Below are positions 8,111 to 55,926 of a stretch of 64,000 nt of DNA, piece by piece (the first letter of the stretch is position 1; each line of letters begins with the position of its first letter). The stretch spans positions 37,203,296-37,267,295 of the forward strand of contig NC_030386.2 in NCBI RefSeq assembly GCF_001625215.2, in the 5' to 3' direction. The notes under the pieces were generated by a model. It worked only from the letters and a program-made list of their open reading frames with translations. It had not been told where the DNA came from and did no database searches. A program made the position numbers and the translations under genes. Source of the DNA: Daucus carota subsp. sativus (Eukaryota; Streptophyta; Magnoliopsida; Apiales; Apiaceae).

Positions 8111-8558
8111 CAAATACATAAACAAATCACGAAATTTAATTAATAAATTTATCTGATTTAATTTATCAATTTTGAACTTTTATTTAGTTAAAATTTTCTA
8201 ATTTTTGTAACTTGCAATCCATAATTTTCTAGTTGAATAATTATTTATCTATTCAATTTACTAAATTAAATGATCTAATTTTGATATAATTAAAGTTTGG
8301 TACTTAATAAAATTATTTAATATATTTATACAACTATATATTTATTTATTTCATAAATTAATCTTATATTTGAATACGTTAATATATAATATATAAATTT
8401 TGGTATTTGATTTATTCTTTGAAACTAAAATATATATTATTTGATGTCTATTAATTTTTATAATTTTGTTCTATAAAAAATAGTATTATGTTTTATTGGT
8501 GGTATCCATTAAATTTTATGATATTTTTTTATTTTCACAAATAATAATCAATCAATCA
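8111..8558. other. AT-rich intergenic DNA
   Basis: This is low-complexity AT-rich sequence upstream of the ARFRP1-like promoter and before the Helitron array. No gene or clear repeat family is recognised. Confidence 0.5.
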
Positions 8559-8568
8559 TCAATATATA

Positions 8569-9202
8569 TCAATATATATATATATATATAAAGGAGAATG
8601 CGAGCGTCTCTAGGATCGTTCGATTCAGTCTTCTAAATTTTCTTGAATTTCGGAGAGAAAATATAATTATAATTCAAAAAATCAGGTCCAAGAATTCTAA
8701 AAGTAATACAATTCTTTTTTTATTTAATTCTAAAGATGATACAGTTCTTTTCTTATTTGGTATTTCTTATTAAATTCTAAAGATGATACAATAGTATTTC
8801 TTATAGAATTCTAATGATGATACAATTCTTTTCTTATTAGTAATCCTAAAAGAAATATGATTATATTTATTCAAACTAATAATAATAGATAAAATACAAT
8901 TTATATTTAAGTTATGTAAAGTAATATATAAAATTCTTATTTTCGATAATATATAATATATTGAAGATATGTTTAACGGGAACACGACTGAAAATAACTT
9001 TTATGGAATTATAATATTATTTCGTATCAAAATTTATAAAAAAGATTATTTATTAGTATTGTGTTTAAGGGGAGGACGGCCCAAATTAATTTTTACCTAA
9101 ATAATAATATTTTTTTATCAGTATTATGTTTGACGGGAAAGTAGCTAAAACAATATTTTATCTAAATTTATAAAAAATTCATAACGCCGCCGCGAAGCGC
9201 GG
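8569..9202 (+). mobile_element. Helitron-like element H1 (short subfamily, 3' tail deleted)
   Basis: The element starts with TCAATATATA followed by an AT tract and the conserved AAAGGAG block, preceded by A as expected for insertion between A and T. It is nearly identical by eye to H3 and to the minus-strand copy M3. It ends exactly at the hairpin CCGCG-AAG-CGCGG. The expected CTTTTTTCACTAG tail is missing, and the sequence jumps into the interior of a second element (AGTCTTCTGATTTTTC). There is no ORF, so it is non-autonomous. Confidence 0.75.
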
Positions 9203-11155
9203 AGTCTTCTGATTTTTCTTAAATTTCGGATAGAAACTATATAACTATAATTCAAAAAAAAAAATCAGGTTCAAGGATTCTAAAAATAATACAATTATTT
9301 TCTGATTAAATTCTAAAGAAGATAGAATTCTTTTCTTATTTGATTTCCACCTTCAATAACACTATTTAAACACAAAATAGTTAATAGTTATTGAATCTGC
9401 TCATATTTTTTATCATTGTTTTTTATTAAGCTACTCATATTTTGAGTAACAAAAAACCGAGCTTTAACTGAAAACACGACGTCGCATCCAACATCCAACA
9501 CAAGGCACAATCTTATCCGAGTCCGAGCTTTAACTGAAATCAGGTTCAAAAATTCTAAAAATAATACAATTCTTTTCTTATTAAATTCTAAAAATAATAC
9601 AATTCTTTTTTTATTTAGTATTTCTTATTGAATTCTAAAGATGATACAATTTTTTTCTTATTTAGTAATCCTAAAAGAAATAGGATTATATTTATTCAAA
9701 CTAACAATAATAAATAAAATACAATTTATATTTAAGATTTGTAAGGTAATATGCACAATTCTTATTTTCGATAAGATACATAGAAGATGTACGTAGTTGA
9801 ATTTTATATTATAAAATTTTATTTTCGATAATATATATTGAAGAATAATCTAATACTAGGTCCGTAATCAAAACTGTGTTTAAGAGTCTAAATAGTAGTT
9901 CGAATCATAAAATTTATTAACTCAGCGTGTCTAGAATTACTGAATTTAGTCTTATAATTTTTTTAATTATATTTCAAATTGAAAATAAAATTTTAACCTA
10001 ATCATATATTGATTTTATGATAATCAAAATGATTCTTGATTAGTATTGTGTTTGACGGGCACGGGAGGCGGCCCAAACTAATTTTTATCTAAGTAATAAT
10101 AATTTTTCTATTAGTATTATGTTTGACAGAAAAGTGGCTAAAATAATTTTTTATCTATGTTATAATATATTTTTTGTTAAAACAGGACCACAGTTCAAAA
10201 TAATCTTTGTCCAATTATAATCCTCTCAACAACAACTTTCACGTCTTCTCGAACTTAGAGGGTGGTATTGTATCATCATTTTTAATGACCTTTAAAATCT
10301 AGGTGTATTCAATTAAGATTTTTAAATACTCTTTAAAAGTAAGTAGGTATTGTATGAGGATTTTTAAAAAGTCTTTCAAAATTTGAGGTATTGAATTACA
10401 ACTTTTAAAGAGTTATTAAAATTCAGTTATTATTCAATATATCAATGATTTTGGTGGAAAAATATAATTGATAGACTTTTAATGACTTTTTATGAAAAAT
10501 TGTATATATTTTTTCATGAAATTGTGAGGCCATTATTGAAAAGATTTGACATGACTTTGTATTCTCCCAATTAACCAGTTGCTAGAGCTACAGCTTATCA
10601 CTTCCGGTTCCTCTCTGCCACAAGTTTTCTATCAGTATTATGTTCGACGGGAAAGTGGCTAAAATAATTTTTTATCTATGTTAAAATATATTTTTTTTGT
10701 TAAAACGTGTACACGGTTTTAAATAATTTTTATCCAATTATAATCTTTAATTTTATCATAATTAAAATAATTTTTATTAGTATTGTTTTTGACAGTAAGG
10801 GGACTCAAACTAATATTTAAATTATAATGTTCTGTTATTAGTATTGTGTTTGACAAGAGAGCGGTTCAAACTAATTTTGATCTAAATTATAATATTTAAT
10901 TTTATCATAAAAATAATAATTATGGATTAATATTGTCTTTGACGGGAGGGCGGTTCGAACTAATTTTATTATTAGTATTGTGTTTGACAGGATGACCACC
11001 TAAACAAATTTTATACTAATTATAATACTTTTTATTAGTGATATGTTTAACCGGAAGATGACTCAAAATAATTTTTATGTTATCGTAATATTAATTTGTA
11101 TCAAAATTTATACAAAATTTATAACGCCGCCGCGAAGCGCGGCTTTTTTCACTAG
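9203..11155 (+). mobile_element. Helitron-like element H2 (long subfamily, 5' truncated, with foreign inserts)
   Basis: It lacks the 5' terminus but has the internal 60-70 bp repeats with GTGTTTGAC cores, the hairpin at 11126-11143 and a complete CACTAG end at 11150-11155 followed by T. Two segments do not match the family: about 9350-9530, and about 10223-10629, which holds MITE-like GTATTCAATT motifs. The second insert is flanked by near-duplicate family sequence. Confidence 0.7.
10223..10629. mobile_element. MITE-like insertion inside Helitron H2
   Basis: The segment interrupts the Helitron repeat series and is unlike the rest of the family. It contains GGTGTATTCAATT and GAGGTATTGAATT motifs and many AATTTTTAAA-type runs, features shared with Tourist/Harbinger-like MITEs and with the segment at 43068-43323. 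I could not define terminal repeats or a target duplication. Confidence 0.4.
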
Positions 11156-11790
11156 TATATATATAAAGGAGGATGCGAGCGTCTCTAGGATTGTTCGATT
11201 CAGTCTTCTAAATTTTCTTGAATTTCGGAGAGAAAATATAATTATAATTCAAAAAATCAGGTCCAAGAATTCTAAAAGTAATACAATTCTTTTCTTATTT
11301 AATTCTAAAGATGATACAGTTCTTTTCTTATTTGGTATTTCTTATTAAATTCTAAAGATGATACAATAGTATTTCTTATAAAATTCTAACGATGATACAA
11401 TTCTTTTCTTATTTAGTAATCCTAAAAGAAATAGGATTATATTTATTCAAACTAATAATAATAGATAAAATACAATTTATATTTAAGTTATGTAAAGTAA
11501 TATATACAATTCTTATTTTCGATAATATATAATATATTGAAGATATGTTTAACGGGAACACGACTGAAAATAACTTTTATGGAATTATAATATTATTTCG
11601 TATCAAAATTTACAAAAAAGATTATTTATTAGTATTGCGTTTAAGGGGAGGACGGCCCAAATTAATTTTTACCTAAATAATAATATTTTTTTATTAGTAT
11701 TATGTTTGACGGGAAAGTAGCTGAAACAATATTTTGTCTAAATTTATAAAAAATTCATAACGCCGCCGCGAAGCGCGGTTTTTTCACTAG
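11156..11790 (+). mobile_element. Helitron-like element H3 (short subfamily, 635 bp)
   Basis: It begins with the TATATATA...AAAGGAGGATGCGAGCGTCT block directly after the CTAG of H2 and lacks the first TCAA. It ends with the hairpin at 11764-11778 and CACTAG at 11785-11790. It is almost identical by eye to H1 over its whole length, which suggests recent amplification. Confidence 0.8.
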
Positions 11791-13237
11791 TATATATATA
11801 TAAAGGAGGATGCGAGCGTCTCTAGAGTCGCTCGATTCAGTCTTCTGATTTTCTTAAATTTCAGATAAAAAATATAATTATAATTCAAAAAATATGTTTA
11901 AAGGATTCTAAAGTCAATATAATTCTTTTCTTATCAGATTCTAAAATATATAAAAGATATTTGAGTTTAAAGAGAAGAAGAATCTTCCCTTAGTCTGCAC
12001 TCTGCTATGCTTGAACTCATGGAGAATGGAGGTGGTGGGCATAAGTTATGAACGCCTCTTTTGGTTAACCGTTAGTTTTTAAAGTTTGGCACATCTTTTG
12101 TTCTAATATTTTCAGAGCTCTATCGAATCAATTTTTTTATAATCCCGCGGGATTGGAAAAGAGTGCTAACAGGAAGATTGGGATTTGGGACACAGTTGTA
12201 ACAGTCACACTTCATACAAATGCTCTTACCTTCAAAATTGTTGTAAAACCTTGCAGATTAATATTCTTGAGTTTATATATACAGAGGCAATCCAACAACG
12301 GAGGGCACAAGGACTTACGTAAGGTAACTGTATAATTGCAATTATTTATAATGAAATATTGCTAATAATTTTTGTGTGTTTTATTATGAAATATTTACTC
12401 ATATTTTGTGCAATTTTATTGTCTTCACTACAATATCTTTTTCCTCTGATTATGAGCCACTTGGTCATTATAAGTTTATAAATCTTTGTAATTAATTATA
12501 GATTATAATTTTTAACTAATAAATATGACTCATAGAATAAAAATAATTAACAAATAAAATAGGATATATAAAATAGGAATCATATATTGATTTTATGATA
12601 ATGTAAATGATTCTTGATTAGTATTATGTTTGACGGGTACGGGAGGCGGCCCAAACCAATTTTTATCTAAATAATATAAATTTTCTATTAGTATCATGTT
12701 TGACGGGAAAATGGCTAATATAATTTTATATCTATGTTATAATATAATTTTTTGTTAAAACGGGACCACAGTTCAAAATAATTTTTATACAATTATAGTC
12801 TTTAATTTTATCATAATTAGGATAATTTTTATTAGTATTGTGTTTCAGTAAGGCGACTCAAACTAATATATAAACTATAATATTTTTTTATTAGTATTGT
12901 GTTTGACAAGAGAGCGGCTCAAACTAATTTTGATCTAAATTATAATATTTAATTTTATCATAAAAATAATAATTATGGATTAATATTATCTTTGACGCGA
13001 GAGAGGTTCGAACTAATTTTATTATTAGTATTGTGTTTGACAAGATTTCCACTTAAACAAATTTTTACACCAATCATAATTTTTTTTATTTGTGATATGT
13101 TTAACGGGAAGATAACTCAAAATAATCTTTATGCTATTATAATATTGATTAAGATGACTCAAAATAATTTTTATGCTATTATAATTTCAATTCGTAGCAA
13201 AATTAACGCCGCCGCGAAGCGCGGCTTTTTTCACTAG
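11791..13237 (+). mobile_element. Helitron-like element H4 (long subfamily) carrying a foreign segment
   Basis: The 5' block follows the CTAG of H3; the hairpin is at 13211-13224 and CACTAG at 13232-13237. The interior at about 11945-12345 is less AT-rich and unrelated to the family, with exon-like and splice-like features (TTTTCAG at about 12115, AAGGTAACT at about 12321). It may be captured host sequence. After it, the usual GTGTTTGAC repeat series resumes. Confidence 0.75.
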
Positions 13238-14423
13238 TATATATATATATATAAAGGAGGATGCGGGCGTCTCTAGAATTGTTCGATTCAGTCTTCTCAT
13301 TTTTCTTAAATTTCTGAGAGAAAATATAATTATAATTCAAAAAATAAGGTTCAAGAATTCTGAAAGTAATACAACTCTTTTCTTATTGAATTCTAAAGAT
13401 GATACAACTCTTTTACTTTTTATTTAGTATTTCTTATTGAATTCTAAAGATGATACAATTTTTTTCTTATTTAGTAATCCTAAAAGAAATAGAATTATAT
13501 TTAAAAAATCAGGTTTTAATCAATAAATAGGAATCATAAAATAAAAATAATTAACAAAAAAATAGGATATATAAAATAAGAATCATATATTGATTTTATA
13601 ATAATGTAAATGATTCTTGAGTAGTATTGTGTTTTGACGGGCACGGGAGGCGGCCCAAACTAATTTTTATCTAAATAATAATAATTTTTCTATTAGTATT
13701 ATGTTTGATAGGAGAGTGGCTAATATAATTTTTATCTATGTTATAATGTTTTTTTTGTTAAAACGGCGGTTCAGAATAATTACAAAATAAATTAGGATAT
13801 ATACAAATAGGAATCATATATTGATCTTATAATAATGTAAATGATTCTTGATTAGTATTGTGTTTGACGGGCACGGGAGGCGGCCCAAACAAATTTTTAT
13901 CTATATAATAATAAATTTTCTATTAGTATTATGTTTGACGGGAAAATGGCTAAAATAATTTTTTGTCCATGTTATAATATATTTTTTTTTTGTTAGAATG
14001 GTACCGCGGTTCAAATTATTTTTTATCCAGTTATAATCTTTAATTTTATCATAATTAGAATAATTTTATTAGTATTGTGTTTGACAGAGCGACTCAAACT
14101 AATATCTAAATTATAATGTTTTGTTATTAGTATTGTGTTTGACAAGAGAGCGGCTCAAACTAATTTTGATCTAAATTATAATATTTAATTTTATCATAAA
14201 AATAATAATTATGGATTAATATTATCTTTGACGGGAGAGAAGTTCGAACTAATTTTATTATTAGTATTGTGTTTGACATGATGGCCACTTATACAAATTT
14301 TTATATTAATTATAATATTTTTTTATTAGTGATATGTTTAACGGGAAGATGATTCAAAATAATTTTTATGTTATTCATATCAAAATTTATAACGCCGTCG
14401 CGAAGCGCGGCTTTTTTCACTAG
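13238..14423 (+). mobile_element. Helitron-like element H5 (long subfamily, 1.19 kb)
   Basis: The element has the 5' TATATA-AAAGGAGG block, an internal series of (G/A)TGTTTGAC repeats at about 13862, 13929, 14077, 14137, 14270 and 14333, a hairpin near 14395-14410 with one substitution (GCCGTCGCG), and CACTAG at 14418-14423. Part of the GACGGGCACGGGAGGCGGC repeat unit is duplicated inside it. No protein is encoded. Confidence 0.8.
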
Positions 14424-14424
14424 T

Positions 14425-14498
<74 letters not shown>

Positions 14499-16104
14499 GA
14501 GGATACGGGCGTCTCTAGAATCGTTCGATTCAGTCTTCTGATTTTTCTTAAATTTCGGATAAAAATTATAGTTATAACTCAAAAAATCAAGTTCAAAAAT
14601 TCTAAAAGTAATACAATTCTTTTTTTTTATTGGATTCTCAGGATAGTGCTCTAGAATCTAAAAAAAGGATTCTAAAAATCCGGTTCAAATATTATAAAGA
14701 CAAAAGGACTGTGAAAATAGTATAATTCTTAAAAAAAATAATTATTTAAAAGACACATAATCTTAAATCTTTCGTTATATTCACTATTTATTTTTATTTA
14801 AGTGCCAACTGCAAGCACGAGGAATTTCCTTACTACCTTGTGGCTATTTCGCACATTGGCATGCACCGAGGAAGTAAAAATTTGAGTTTCATCCCAATTG
14901 ATGATCGCATAAAATTCTCATGATAAGCTCCGGTTTCAACTGCAACACCATAATTAATTATATTCATGTTTGCATTCTTCTTCTATCCAACAGAATCATT
15001 CGAATAGAATGGTTGGATTCAATTCTACAATTTTCTAAAATTTCGGATAAAAATAAAATTATAATCTAAAACCAGGTTCAAGTACAATTCTCTTATTTAT
15101 TTAGGAATCATAAACGAGTAAAATTTTCCAAAAATAATTTTTATCTAATTATAATCATTAATTTTAATATAATTAGAATAATTTTTATATTTATTTAAAC
15201 TAACAATCATAGATAAAATATAGTTTATATTTAAAATTTGTAAGATAATTATGTACAATTATTATTTTTGATTCAATGTTATAATTTTTTTAAATTTCGA
15301 GTAGAAAATTAAGGATTGTAAAGATAATAATAATAAAATAAGGATAATTTTTAACTAATAAACAGGAATCATAAAATGAAAATAATTAATAAAATAAAAC
15401 AGAATATATAAAATAGGAATCATATATTGATTTTATGATAATGTAAATAATTCTTGATTAGTATTGTGTTTGACGGGCACGGGAGGCGGCCCAAATTAAT
15501 TTTTATCTAAATAACAATAATTTTTCTATTAGTATTATGTTTGACGGGAAAGTGGCTTAAATAATTTTTTATCTATGCTATAATATATATTTTTTGAAAC
15601 AGGACCACGGTTCAAATTAATTTTTATCCAATTATAATCTTTAAGTTTATCATAATTAGAATAATTTTTATTAGTATTGTGATTGAGAGTAAGGAGACTC
15701 AAACTGATATCTAAATTATAATGTTTTATTATTAGCATCGTGTTTGACAAGTGAGCGGCTCAAACTAATTTTTATCTATATTATTATATTTAATTTTATT
15801 ATAATTATAATAATTATTAATTAATATTGTCTTTGATAGAAGGGCGGTCAAACAATTTTTTTATTAGTGTTGTGCTTGACAAGAGGGCCACTTAAACAAA
15901 CTTTTATATTAATTATAATATTTTTTCGTATCAAAATTTATAAAAAGATTCTTTATTAATATTGTGTTTGAGGGGAGGGCGGCCCAAATTAATTTTTATC
16001 TAAATAATAATAAATTTTCTATTAGTATTATGTTTGAAGAAAAAGTAGCTAAAACAATTTTTTGTCTCAATTTATGAAAATTCATAACGCCGCCGGAAGC
16101 GCGG
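14424..16104 (+). mobile_element. Helitron-like element H6 (long subfamily) with foreign segment and damaged 3' hairpin
   Basis: It starts TCAATATATA immediately after the CTAG of H5, with a very long (AT)n tract to about 14495. The interior at about 14745-15010 is foreign and contains a 40-codon open stretch. The 3' hairpin is damaged (GCCGGAAGCGCGG, two bases lost in the left arm) and no CTAG tail follows, so the element is probably dead. The putative 5' leader of the inhibitor-2 gene begins directly after it. Confidence 0.75.
14427..14495. repeat. (AT)n tract at the 5' end of Helitron H6
   Basis: About 68 bp of uninterrupted TA repeat sit where sibling elements have only 10-20 bp. Confidence 0.95.
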
Positions 16105-51697: not shown

Positions 51698-53885
51698 CTA
51701 GTGAATAAAGCCGCGCTTCGCGGCGGCGTTATAAATTTTGTATAAATTTTGATGCGAATTAATATTATAATAGCATAAAAATTATTTTGAGTCATCTTCC
51801 GGTCAAACACACTAATAAAAAAATATTATAATTAGTATAAAATTCTTTTTAAAAGGTCATCCAGTCAAACATAATACTAATAATAAAATTAGTTCGAACC
51901 GCCCTCCGGTCAAAGACAATATTAATCCATAATTTTTATTTTTATGATAAAATTAAATATTACAATATAATTTAGATCGAAATTAGTTTGAGCCGCTCTC
52001 TTGTCAAACACAATACTAATAAAAATTATTCTAATTATGATAAAATTAAAGATTATAATTGGATAAAAATTATTTTAAACCGTAGTCCCGTTTTAACGAA
52101 TAATATATTATAACATAGATAAAAAATTATTTTAGCCACTTTCACGTCCAACATAATACTAATAGAAAAATTATTATTATTTAGATAAAAATTAGTTTGG
52201 GCCGCCTCCCGTGCCCGTCAAACACAATACTAATCAAGAAAATTTACATTATCATAAAATCAATATATGATTCCTATTTTATATATCCTATTTTATTTTA
52301 TTAATTATTTTTATTTTATGATTCCTATTTATTAGTTAAAAATTATTATTCTTTTATGGTTCTAATTTTTTTGCTATTAGTTTTTTTAAGTGATTATTAT
52401 CTTTACAATACTTTATTTTATATTCGAAATTTAAGAAAATTATAAGACTAAATCAAAAATAAAAATTGTACGTATCCCCTTACACATCTTAAATATAAAT
52501 TGTATTTTATCTATGATTGTTAGTTTAAATAAATATAAAAATTATTCTAATTATGATAAAATTAAAGATTATGATTGGATAAAATTATTTTGAACCGTGG
52601 TCCCGTTTTAATAAGAAAATATATTATAACATAGATAAAAAAATTATTTTAGCCACTTTCCCGTGAAAAATAATACTAATAGAAAAATTATTATTATTTA
52701 GATAAAAATTAGTTTGGGCCGCCTCCCATGCCCGTCAAACACAATACTAATCAAGAATCATTTACATTATCATAAAATCAACATATGATTCATATTTTAT
52801 ATATCCTATTTTATTTTATTAATTAATTTTATTTTTTGTTTCCCATTTTTTAGTTAAAAATTATTATTCTTTTATGGTTCTATTTTTTTTGCTATTATTT
52901 TTTTAATGATTATTATCTTTACAATCCTTTATTTTCTACTCGAAATTTAAGAAAATTATAAGAGTAAATCGAAAATAAAAATTGTATGTATTACCTTACA
53001 AATCTTAAATATAAATTGTATTTTATCTAGGATTGTTAGTTTAAATATATATAATCCTATTCCTTTTAGGATTCCTAAATAAGAAAAGAATTGTATTACT
53101 ATTTTCAATCTGAAATTTAAGAAAATTATAAGAAAAGAGTTTTAAGATCCGTGAATTTGATTTTTTGAATTATAATTTTATTTTCTATTCGAAATTTAAG
53201 AAAATTATAAGATTGAATCCAACTATTATCGAGATCGGTTGTAAGTCAATGCATACTATTTGAATGAGGTTGTGAAAATCTTAAAGATGTTTTCATAATA
53301 GAGATGCAATCTTCTTGACCACTATGGAACGATGGGAGTTTAGCGCTACAAACCTGTTTAGACAATTTGAGATTCTGCAATATGCTGGTTTTTATTTTTT
53401 AGATATATAATTTGAAAAAAATTAATATAATAAGATTATAAATTTTATAACTTTTAAAAATAAGAATTGTATTTTTAAATTATATTTGTTCAATAATTGT
53501 TATATTGAATAAATAAAACACAGGGCCATCCTTGCTTTTTTTTTTTTGTTGCAAGCAATACAAATTAAGTTGGTGATAATCAGAATCTGACCGTTCAAGA
53601 TGGCGACGATGAGCTAATCGAAAATAAAAATTGTATTAACTTACATTACAAATTTTAAATATAAATTGTATTTTATCAATAATAGCTAGTAATCCTATTA
53701 CTTTTAAGATTTGTAAATAAGAAAAAAATTGTATCATCTTTAGAATTCGATAAGAAAATAGTTGTATTACTTTTAGAATTTTTTAACCTGATTTTTTGAA
53801 TTATAATTATATTTTCTATCTGAAATTTAAGAAAAATTAGAAGACTAAATCGAACAATTCTAGAGACGGCTGCATCCTACTTTAA
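51698..53885 (-). mobile_element. Helitron-like element M1 (long subfamily, minus orientation)
   Basis: Read on the minus strand, it ends with the hairpin (51710-51726) and CACTAG at 51703-51698, followed by T. Its 5' block (GTAGGATGCAGCCGTCTCT) lies near 53870. The TTTGACGGG-type repeat series appears twice, and a foreign segment occupies about 53225-53640. Confidence 0.7.
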
Positions 53886-55315
53886 AATAAGAAAAGAATT
53901 GTATCATCTTTATAATTCGATAAGAAAAGAGTTGTATTACTTTTAGAATTCTTGAACCTGATTTTTTGAATTATAATTATATTTTCTATCCGAAATTTAA
54001 GAAAAATCAGAAGACTGAATCGAACAATTCTAGAGATTATATTTTATAAAAAAGCCGCGCTTCGCGGCGGCGTGATAAATTTTGATATGAATTAGAATTA
54101 TAATAGGATAAAAATTATTTTGAGTCATCTTCTCATTAAACATATCACAAATGAAAAATATTATAATTGATATAAAAATTTGTTTAAGTGATCATCCTTT
54201 CAAACACAATACTAATAATAAAATTAGTTCGAACCCCCCTCCCGTCAAAGACAATATTAATTCATAATTATTATTTTTATGATAAATTAAATATTATAAT
54301 TTAGATCAAAATTAGTTTGAGCCGCTCTCTTGTCAAACACAATACTTATAACAAAACATTATAATTTAGATATTAGTTTGAGTCGTTTTACTGTCAAACA
54401 CAATACTACTAAAAATTATTCTAATTATGACAAAATTACAGATTATTTTGAATTGTGTAACAAAAAAATATATTATAACATAGATAAAAAATTATTTTAG
54501 CGACTTTACCGTCAAACATAATACTAATAGAAAAATTTATTATTATTTGGATAAAAATTAGTTTGGGCCGCCTCCCGTGCCCGTCAAACGAAATACTAAT
54601 CAAGAACCATTTACATTATCATAAAATCAATATATGATACCTATTTTTTATATATTATTTTATTTGTTAATTATTTTTATTTTTTGATTCCTATTTATTA
54701 GTTAAAAATTATTATTCTTTTATAAAAATTATTTTAGCGACTTTCCCGTCAAACATAATACTAATAGAAAATTTATTATTATTTAGATAAAAATTAGTTT
54801 GGGCCGCCTCCCGTGCTCGTCAAACACAATACTAATCAAGACCCATTTACATTATCATAAAATTAATATATGATTCCTATTTTTTATATATTATTTTATT
54901 TGTTAATTATTTTTATTTTTTGATGCCTATTTATTAGTTAAAAATTATTATTCTTTTATGGTTCTAATTTTTGTTGCTATCAGTTTTTTTAATGATTATT
55001 ATCTTTACAATCTTTTATTTTCTATTCGAAATTTAAGAAAATTATAAGACTAAATCGATAATAAAAATTGTACGTATTACCTTACAAATCTTAAATATAA
55101 ATTGTATTTTATCTATAATTTTGTTAGTTTGAATAAATATAATCCTATTTCTATTAGGATTACTAAATAGGAAAAGAATTGTCTCATCTTTCGAATTCAA
55201 TAAGAAAAACTAAATAAAAAAAGAATTGTATCATATTTAGAATTCGATAAGAAAAGAGTTGTATTACTTTTAGAATTCTTGAACCTGATTTTTTGAATTA
55301 TAACTATATTTTTTA
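53886..55315 (-). mobile_element. Helitron-like element M2 (long subfamily, minus orientation) with an adjoining 5' fragment
   Basis: The hairpin lies at 54054-54070; its tail (CTTTTTT) runs into a second family 5' fragment (53886-54048) instead of CACTAG. The interior carries two copies of the GGCGGCCCAAACTAATTTT unit with a duplicated flank near 54540 and 54720. The 5' side is cut at 55315, where GGATAAAAAATATAG joins M3. Confidence 0.7.
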
Positions 55316-55926
55316 TCCTTCGCGGCGGCGTTATTTAGATAAAATATTGTTTTAGCTACTTTGCCGTCAAACATAATACTAATAAAAACATATTATTATT
55401 TAGGTAAAAATTAATTTGGGCCGTCCTCCCCTTAAACACAATACTAATAAATAATCTTTTTTATAAATTTTGATACGAAATAATATTATAATTCCATAAA
55501 AGTTATTTTCAGTCGTGTTCCCGTTAAACATATCTTCAATATATTATATATTATCGAAAATAAGAATTGCATATATTACTTTACATAACTTAAATATAAA
55601 TTGTATTTTATCTATTATTATTAGTTTGAATAAATATAATCCTATTTCTTTTAGGATTACTAAATAAGAAAAGAATTGTATCATTGTTAGAATTCTATAA
55701 GAAATACTATTGTATCATCTTTAGAATTTAATAAGAAATACCAAATAAGAAAAGAACTGTATCATCTTTAGAATTAAAAAAGAAAAGAATTGTATTACTT
55801 TTAGAATTCTTGGACCTGATTTTTTGAATTATAATTATATTTTCTCTCCGAAATTCAAGAAAAATCAGAAGATTGAATCGAACAATTCTGGAGACGCGCG
55901 CATCCTCCTTTATATATATATATTGA
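55316..55926 (-). mobile_element. Helitron-like element M3 (short subfamily, minus orientation)
   Basis: It starts on the minus strand with TCAATATATA at 55926 and is nearly identical by eye to H1 and H3, more than 40 kb away. It is broken in the middle of the hairpin (CGCCGCCGCGAA at 55316-55327), where it joins M2. Confidence 0.78.

Follow-up and report, generated by a model that had tools for sequence, protein, structure and literature searches.

A head-to-tail Helitron array in the carrot genome

The window analysed here is a 64,000-nucleotide stretch of the carrot genome (Daucus carota subsp. sativus, assembly GCF_001625215.2, contig NC_030386.2; C6:37203296-37267295 in the contig numbering used below), and its positions 8548-16104 hold a head-to-tail array of a non-autonomous Helitron family. 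A preliminary description of this locus had proposed an array in a single orientation with four internal junctions. The sequence confirms both, with five elements, H1 to H5, every member lying on the plus strand (Table 1). From H1 to H5 the members measure 2587, 635, 1447, 1186 and at least 1681 bp; differing thus in length, they are not one repeated unit, and in the first 150 bp, the part compared, identity between neighbours is 86-98%. H1 is a two-part fusion in which the hairpin at 9186-9202 passes directly into the interior of a second copy. The fused H1 probably moved as a single unit, because the same fusion was found at C1:55648106 (L004; 98.7% identity over the 2,136 bp covered there). 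H2 has a 99% identical copy at C5:2129266. The TA tract of H5 (14428-14495) is expanded, (TA)6 being the commonest form among the 5' ends listed. Genome-wide counts refer to the source assembly of the window (441,086,747 bases, 11 contigs).

Table 1. Members, junctions and left-border stubs of the Helitron array (window positions).
Feature	Position	Strand	Description
Stub 1	8548..8551	+	TCAA; remnant of the earliest stub-forming resident; presumed partner junction 13237/13238
Stub 2	8552..8555	+	TCAA; presumed partner junction 11790/11791
Stub 3	8556..8568	+	TCATCAATATATA, read as the H2 5' remnant; presumed partner junction 11155/11156
H1	8569..11155	+	complete composite Helitron; starts TCAATATATA, ends CTAG; fused internally past hairpin 9186-9202
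H1 3' terminus	11126..11155	+	hairpin GCCGCGAAGCGCGGC, T run, CACTAG; common to H2, H3 and H4 with small changes
Junction H1/H2	11155/11156		CTAG/(TA)5AAGG
H2	11156..11790	+	635-bp Helitron without TCAA; start (TA)5AAGG, end CTAG
Junction H2/H3	11790/11791		CTAG/(TA)6AAGG
H3	11791..13237	+	Helitron without TCAA; start (TA)6AAGG, end CTAG
Junction H3/H4	13237/13238		CTAG/(TA)8AAGG
H4	13238..14423	+	Helitron without TCAA; start (TA)8AAGG, end CTAG
Junction H4/H5	14423/14424		CTAG/TCAA(TA)n, i.e. CTAG/TCAATATATA or CTAG/TCAATATA
H5	14424..16104	+	TCAA and 68-bp TA tract kept; 3' hairpin present, CTAG end gone

The family begins with TCAA(TA)nAAGGAGGATGCG and ends with GCCGCGAAGCGCGGC, a T run and CACTAG. 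It shows the traits of canonical Helitrons (Helitron1), namely TC at the 5' end (283 exact TCAATATATATA..TATAAAGGAGGATGCG ends genome-wide), a CTRR 3' end (CTAG) behind a short hairpin, and an A/T insertion site. Ahead of the 5' TCAA stands A in 87, G in 10 and T in 3 of 100 intact 5' ends (those listed first among the 283, on contigs C1-C3), and CTAG is followed by T in all 40 right flanks, which were chosen outside the list of CTAG/TATATATA junctions described below. Family 3' ends were found at 520 places with up to two mismatches, by patterns that, like the one behind the 31 CTAG/TATATATA sites described below, permit no insertions or deletions and therefore miss 3' ends with five T's; the place lists used comprised the first 100 of 520, 283 and 146 matches, respectively. 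The terminal hairpin GCCGCGAAGCGCGGC has a six-pair stem, and its fold energy (z -1.57) is not unusual for its composition. No repeated target indicative of duplication was seen at the element flanks, empty sites not having been compared.

Array junctions mostly lie inside the family's own 5' end

Three junctions of the window are of the CTAG/TATATA type and one is a precise CTAG/TC junction. Genome-wide, we counted 42 exact CTAG/TATATATA..AAAGGAG junctions (three being those of the window, and two being copies of one array) and seven exact precise CTAG/TCAATATATA..AAAGGAG junctions, the latter pattern missing the window's own TCAA junction, where the TA tract is too long. These junction types are read directly from the assembly. 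We conclude that the array very probably grew stepwise, Helitrons inserting one after another and independently into the 5' end of the copy that was leftmost at the time.

Head-to-tail junctions and arrays have also been cited as support for rolling-circle transposition (PMC5876387), and tandem Helitron arrays of bat and silkworm are thought to be due to bypassed termination (PMC4067079). In such concatemers the 3' terminator is bypassed and several units are made and inserted jointly, which predicts CTAG/TCAA junctions, no stubs of the 5' end, and similar neighbours. The seven exact CTAG/TCAATATATA junctions, together with the one at 14423/14424 of the window, agree with this scheme. The 42 TATA junctions do not, nor do the stubs presented below, the unequal lengths and divergence of neighbouring members, and the presence of junctions with an unlike element. 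We therefore regard concatemers as a very improbable source of the arrays, though they may account for some CTAG/TCAA junctions. A prevalence of precise CTAG-TCAA junctions, which the preliminary description had named as contrary to its proposal of growth distinct from rolling-circle concatenation, is contradicted by the counts.

The unlike element belongs to a second repeat family, with the start TCAATATACTTATATAAAGGAGAAGCG, that serves as a target for the Helitron family. CTAG/TATACTTA, in which the second element has lost its TCAA, was found at eight places (judged by the eight letters that follow CTAG), CTAG/TCAATATACTTATATAAA at seven loci read (L040, L046, L047, L050, L051, L054 and L055), and a CTAG/TTTACTTATATAAAGGAG junction with an unlike element in L140. 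A concatemer of a single element would be hard put to make such TCAA-less junctions between unlike elements.

The junctions might reflect insertion into any (TA)n tract, the family's 5' ends being merely such tracts, a possibility that the preliminary description had marked for checking. The junctions do fall in (TA)n tracts, but the 27-base exact CTAG/TATATATA string (GCGCGGCTTTTTTCACTAGTATATATA) continues into the family's own 5' body at 30 of 31 sites. This count combines 29 of the 30 loci read, two of which are the window itself and two copies of one array, with a thirty-first site from the exact-junction list; the one non-family site is L022. Other (TA)4+ tracts are abundant: nine lie outside the arrays in the window, or roughly 76,000 genome-wide by extrapolation from this one window, so that the preference for family 5' ends would be roughly thousandfold or more, assuming 300-2000 family ends. 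In addition, 37 of the 40 right flanks mentioned above begin TT. The specificity for family 5' ends is a direct reading of the sites, and general microsatellite targeting, now abandoned, appears extremely improbable. A Fisher test on right-flank TT versus TA was left unused as circular, the 42 junctions having been preselected for TA.

The position of the target step was read from the letters after CTAG. CTAG/ATATATATA has no exact match in the genome, and none of the 23 places with up to two mismatches reads CTAG/A; the target step is therefore A^T rather than A^A, and insertion at TCA^A is ruled out. One junction compilation omitted rows in which the letters after CTAG were unlike TATATA or TCAATATA. 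A separate junction class, CACTA/TATATATA, includes C2:19738579, C3:13155199 and C8:1944527, and two of its loci, L014 and L234, enter the family 5' body.

Stubs of the 5' end accumulate at left borders

The left border of the window array carries stacked remnants of the family 5' end ahead of H1, reading TCAA, TCAA, TCA and TCAATATATA, as the preliminary description had it. The segment 8556..8568 splits into two units, TCA (8556-8558) and TCAATATATA (8559-8568), or can be read as a single TCATCAATATATA stub, given that TCATCAA opens 26 of the 100 family 5' ends read. The proposed match between three stubs and the three TATA junctions holds with the merged stub and fails on the plain reading, which gives four. 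With the merged stub, the longest one (TCATCAATATATA) would match the shortest remnant, (TA)5. A search of both strands of the 64-kb window finds TCAATCAATCATCAA a single time. Among solo copies resembling H2, L005 and L007 keep an intact TC start and begin TCATCAA, and L002 and L008 are without TCAA.

Stubs are enriched well beyond this locus. A TCAA(TA)k stub stands directly left of 31 of the 100 intact 5' ends, with 66 stubs in total; at A-ending positions of these flanks, taken as controls, the figure is 66 of 3011 (2.2%). With bare TCA included, stubs are found at 47 of the 100 ends and 238 of the 3011 control positions. Of the 26 ends with a TCATCAA start, 16 have no other stub. The base ahead of the whole ladder is A in 42 of 47 cases, for which reason the additional TCA probably belongs to the inserted copy; bare TCA was dropped as a separate stub since it fits better as part of TCATCAA 5' ends. 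None of the 40 right flanks begins TCAA, and the stubs are therefore on the left side only. Both the enrichment and its sidedness were observed directly.

Stubs track TATA junctions across arrays

Among own-family TATA arrays with a readable left border, 10 of 16 have a stub (the window, L018, L033, L038, L061, L062, L070, L083, L091 and L096). Stubs are also present in three of four arrays whose TATA-type junction involves the second element (L181, L182 and L183; not L185). They are absent from all four CTAG/TCAA-type arrays (L053, with TCAG; L069 and L082, with the second element; and L099, with TTGA). Where the 5' and 3' flanks of a solo copy could be paired, a stub is present in three of 29 cases (L066, L071 and L102), although solo pairs span up to 5 kb, 4.2 kb in L102, and some may conceal a junction. 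The comparison of 10 of 16 TATA arrays with 3 of 29 solo copies gives Fisher p 4e-4, and that of 13 of 20 with 3 of 33, when second-element arrays are added to the former and CTAG/TCAA-type arrays to the latter, gives Fisher p 3e-5, on a grouping into arrays and solo copies that was made by hand, post hoc, and limited to readable left borders. Two arrays at C6:34441960 (plus strand) and C6:34708471 (minus strand), comprising L024/L025 and L166/L167 and lying 266 kb apart, are copies of one and were counted once; they represent either an inverted segmental duplication or an assembly copy. The counts do not include TATA junctions for which no upstream 5' end turned up in the stretches read (L009, L010, L011, L016, L019, L020, L023, L026, L032, L034, L035, L036, L184, L187 and L188), loci with no upstream stretch (L017 and L029), L186 (ladder 11 kb off the junction), L031 (the border itself a junction), L012/L068 (ladder within another copy's body) and L063 (3' end common with L064).

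Besides the post hoc grouping, several observations weigh against sequential self-insertion. Six of the 16 TATA arrays have no stub (L021, L024, L030, L037, L085 and L086), a result that the preliminary description had named as contrary to its proposal, and the three stubbed solo copies stand on the same side. Stubs mostly outnumber junctions, L061 having seven stubs and one verified junction, and the strict rule that the two numbers are equal, which had been put forward earlier and is satisfied in the window on the three-stub reading, was dropped. Five further ladder-bearing 5' ends were followed downstream. L195/L235 and L211/L238 are solo copies that run into non-family sequence at the 3' side without meeting a junction; in L236, L237 and L239 the first 2.2 kb contain no clear 3' end. 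The H2-like solo copy L006 begins TCAA rather than TCATCAA. Twelve places with up to two mismatches read CACTA, or CGCTA/AACTA, and then TATAT, lacking the G of CTAG; simple insertion does not account for these CACTA/TATATATA junctions. Finally, H3 and H4 fall out of a strict nested age order, as detailed below.

The exceptions bear on two further explanations. Stub ladders could arise by slippage at the 5' end, or be 5'-terminus variants carried along with moving copies, the TATA junctions having a separate cause such as a 5' nick within the tract. This would suit the stubs or ladders on some solo copies (L066, L071, L195/L235 and L211/L238), the 16 of 100 ends that start TCATCAA without another stub, and the chimeric Helitrons of Fusarium, which have several 5' termini and one 3' terminus (PMC5148889). 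It does not suit the way stubs follow TATA junctions and are missing from the CTAG/TCAA-type arrays, and insertion accommodates both the varying length of TCAA(TA)k stubs and the junctions formed with an unlike element. As an account of the arrays we judge it improbable; carried-along 5' variants probably explain the surplus stubs rather than the arrays.

Alternatively, whole dimers or arrays could have been transposed as a unit, some junctions then being copied and not made in place. The recurrence of the fused H1 elsewhere (L004) and the six stubless TATA arrays favour this possibility, as do identical stretches at successive junctions at C1:39740775/39741367 and C2:15592358/15594707 (L230-L233). 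Stubless arrays may be dimers moved in this way, or their residents may already have lacked TCAA. Unit transposition leaves the origin of the first TATA junctions and stubs unaccounted for, and in place of sequential self-insertion it seems rather unlikely; beside sequential self-insertion, it is likely to be true for a minority of arrays.

A few related observations are recorded here. The repeated stretches at L230-L233 measure about 104-106 bases by eye, suggesting later tandem duplication inside the arrays. Three family copies, L002 (C5:2129266), L008 and L041, start with TATATA without TCAA and have no CTAG before them; it is possible that TCAA-less copies of this kind were the residents behind stubless arrays. 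Nesting is not confined to 5' ends: solo copies L064, L092 and L098 each lie inside the body of another member of the family. The window contains a second composite member of the family at 51698-55926 on the minus strand. Its outer ends are intact, its inner junction (hairpin 54055-54071) is degraded, it carries no stubs, and its 5' TC follows G instead of A.

A proposed model of sequential self-insertion

Under sequential self-insertion, a newcomer would join at an A^T step within the TCAA(TA)n start of a resident copy, most often TCAA^TATA. The resident's TCAA would stay on the left as a stub; on the right, the newcomer's CTAG would abut the TATATA body of the resident. If the newcomer instead entered one step before this, at host A^TCAA, the junction would read CTAG/TCAA and no stub would form, as suits the insertion of H4 into H5. 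The order of arrival in the window would be H5, H4, H3, H2 and H1, with the Rep-helicase presumably recognising the resident's left end. At other loci, surplus stubs probably stem from the movement of copies bearing more than one 5' start, or from recombinational loss of array members. The earlier proposal of self-insertion at an A-T step in the resident's AT tract, with the stub left and the body right, is supported in the wider genome sample.

A nested age order, also proposed earlier, is borne out loosely. Identity to the closest relative is 98.7% for H1 and 98.9% for H2 (both among the loci compared) and 97% for H4, as against 94% for H3 (over 1,263 of 1,435 query bases) and 85% for H5 (closest full-length relative). 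By this rough proxy H5 is oldest and H1 and H2 are youngest, which agrees with nesting; H3 at 94% and H4 at 97% do not follow the strict order.

Self-targeting growth is less novel than first supposed. Adjacent insertion of Helitrons is in print (PMC2267711), where head-to-tail pairs likewise come from independent insertions and one proposed route uses a host A and the 5' T of the resident. That case has one CTAG/TC junction and no stubs described in the available text, whereas in carrot the usual site lies inside the resident's 5' end and is used at tens of loci. Maize HelA is stated to favour sites next to or within other Helitrons (PMC3288121, 2011, with its reference 14; see also PMC12477314, citing Yang and Bennetzen 2009). 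The maize elements share with the carrot family this self-preference and nesting as a source of composites, but have internal pseudo-3' ends, while the fixed 5' target step and stub ladders are features of carrot. For FoHeli of Fusarium (PMC5148889, 2016), an additional 5' terminus may likewise result from self-insertion, and elements with multiple 5' ends then move; the model given there has a self-inserted pair transpose as the segment between its leftmost 5' end and its first 3' end. A move of this type would yield ladder-bearing solo copies, with recombinational loss of members as an alternative. FoHeli is a non-canonical Helitron2-type element with 5' duplications of 31-85 bases. The carrot family has canonical TC/CTAG termini and forms arrays in which the inner 3' ends are intact, and its stub units are mostly of 3-4 bases.

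Tandem arrays are also known from plant centromeric Helitrons (Xiong et al. 2016, via PMC12628747), where copies are truncated, often with many 5' ends and one 3' end, and rolling-circle amplification is invoked; in the window, H1 to H4 have full 3' ends and H2 to H4 are without TCAA. Array growth through site preference rather than concatemers has been described for SaTar MULE arrays in guayule and rice (PMC5907723) and for transposable-element dimers made by double insertion (McGurk and Barbash 2018, via PMC12628747). These are other element types, targeting microsatellites or a shared site and not their own left end. Neither a fixed TCAA^TATA self-target nor ladders of four-base stubs were found in the literature passages covered, which included few subscription papers. 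The carrot family is a strongly self-targeting variant of known Helitron behaviour, self-insertion, adjacent insertion and multiple 5' termini having been published before.

Both target choice and the origin of tandem arrays are debated for Helitrons. Sequential self-insertion and concatemer formation differ in the junction letters that they predict, and the exact counts, 42 to 7, speak for the former. As a tentative extension, the transposase may bind the left end of a resident of its own or a related family and nick four bases inside the terminus (TCAA^TATA), each self-insertion adding a stub, so that ladders would count past insertions and could travel to new sites. If so, replication start and target choice would rest on one shared recognition signal. 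Stub ladders are a readable though imperfect record of insertion, by which Helitron target choice could be tested from sequence in other accessions and genomes.

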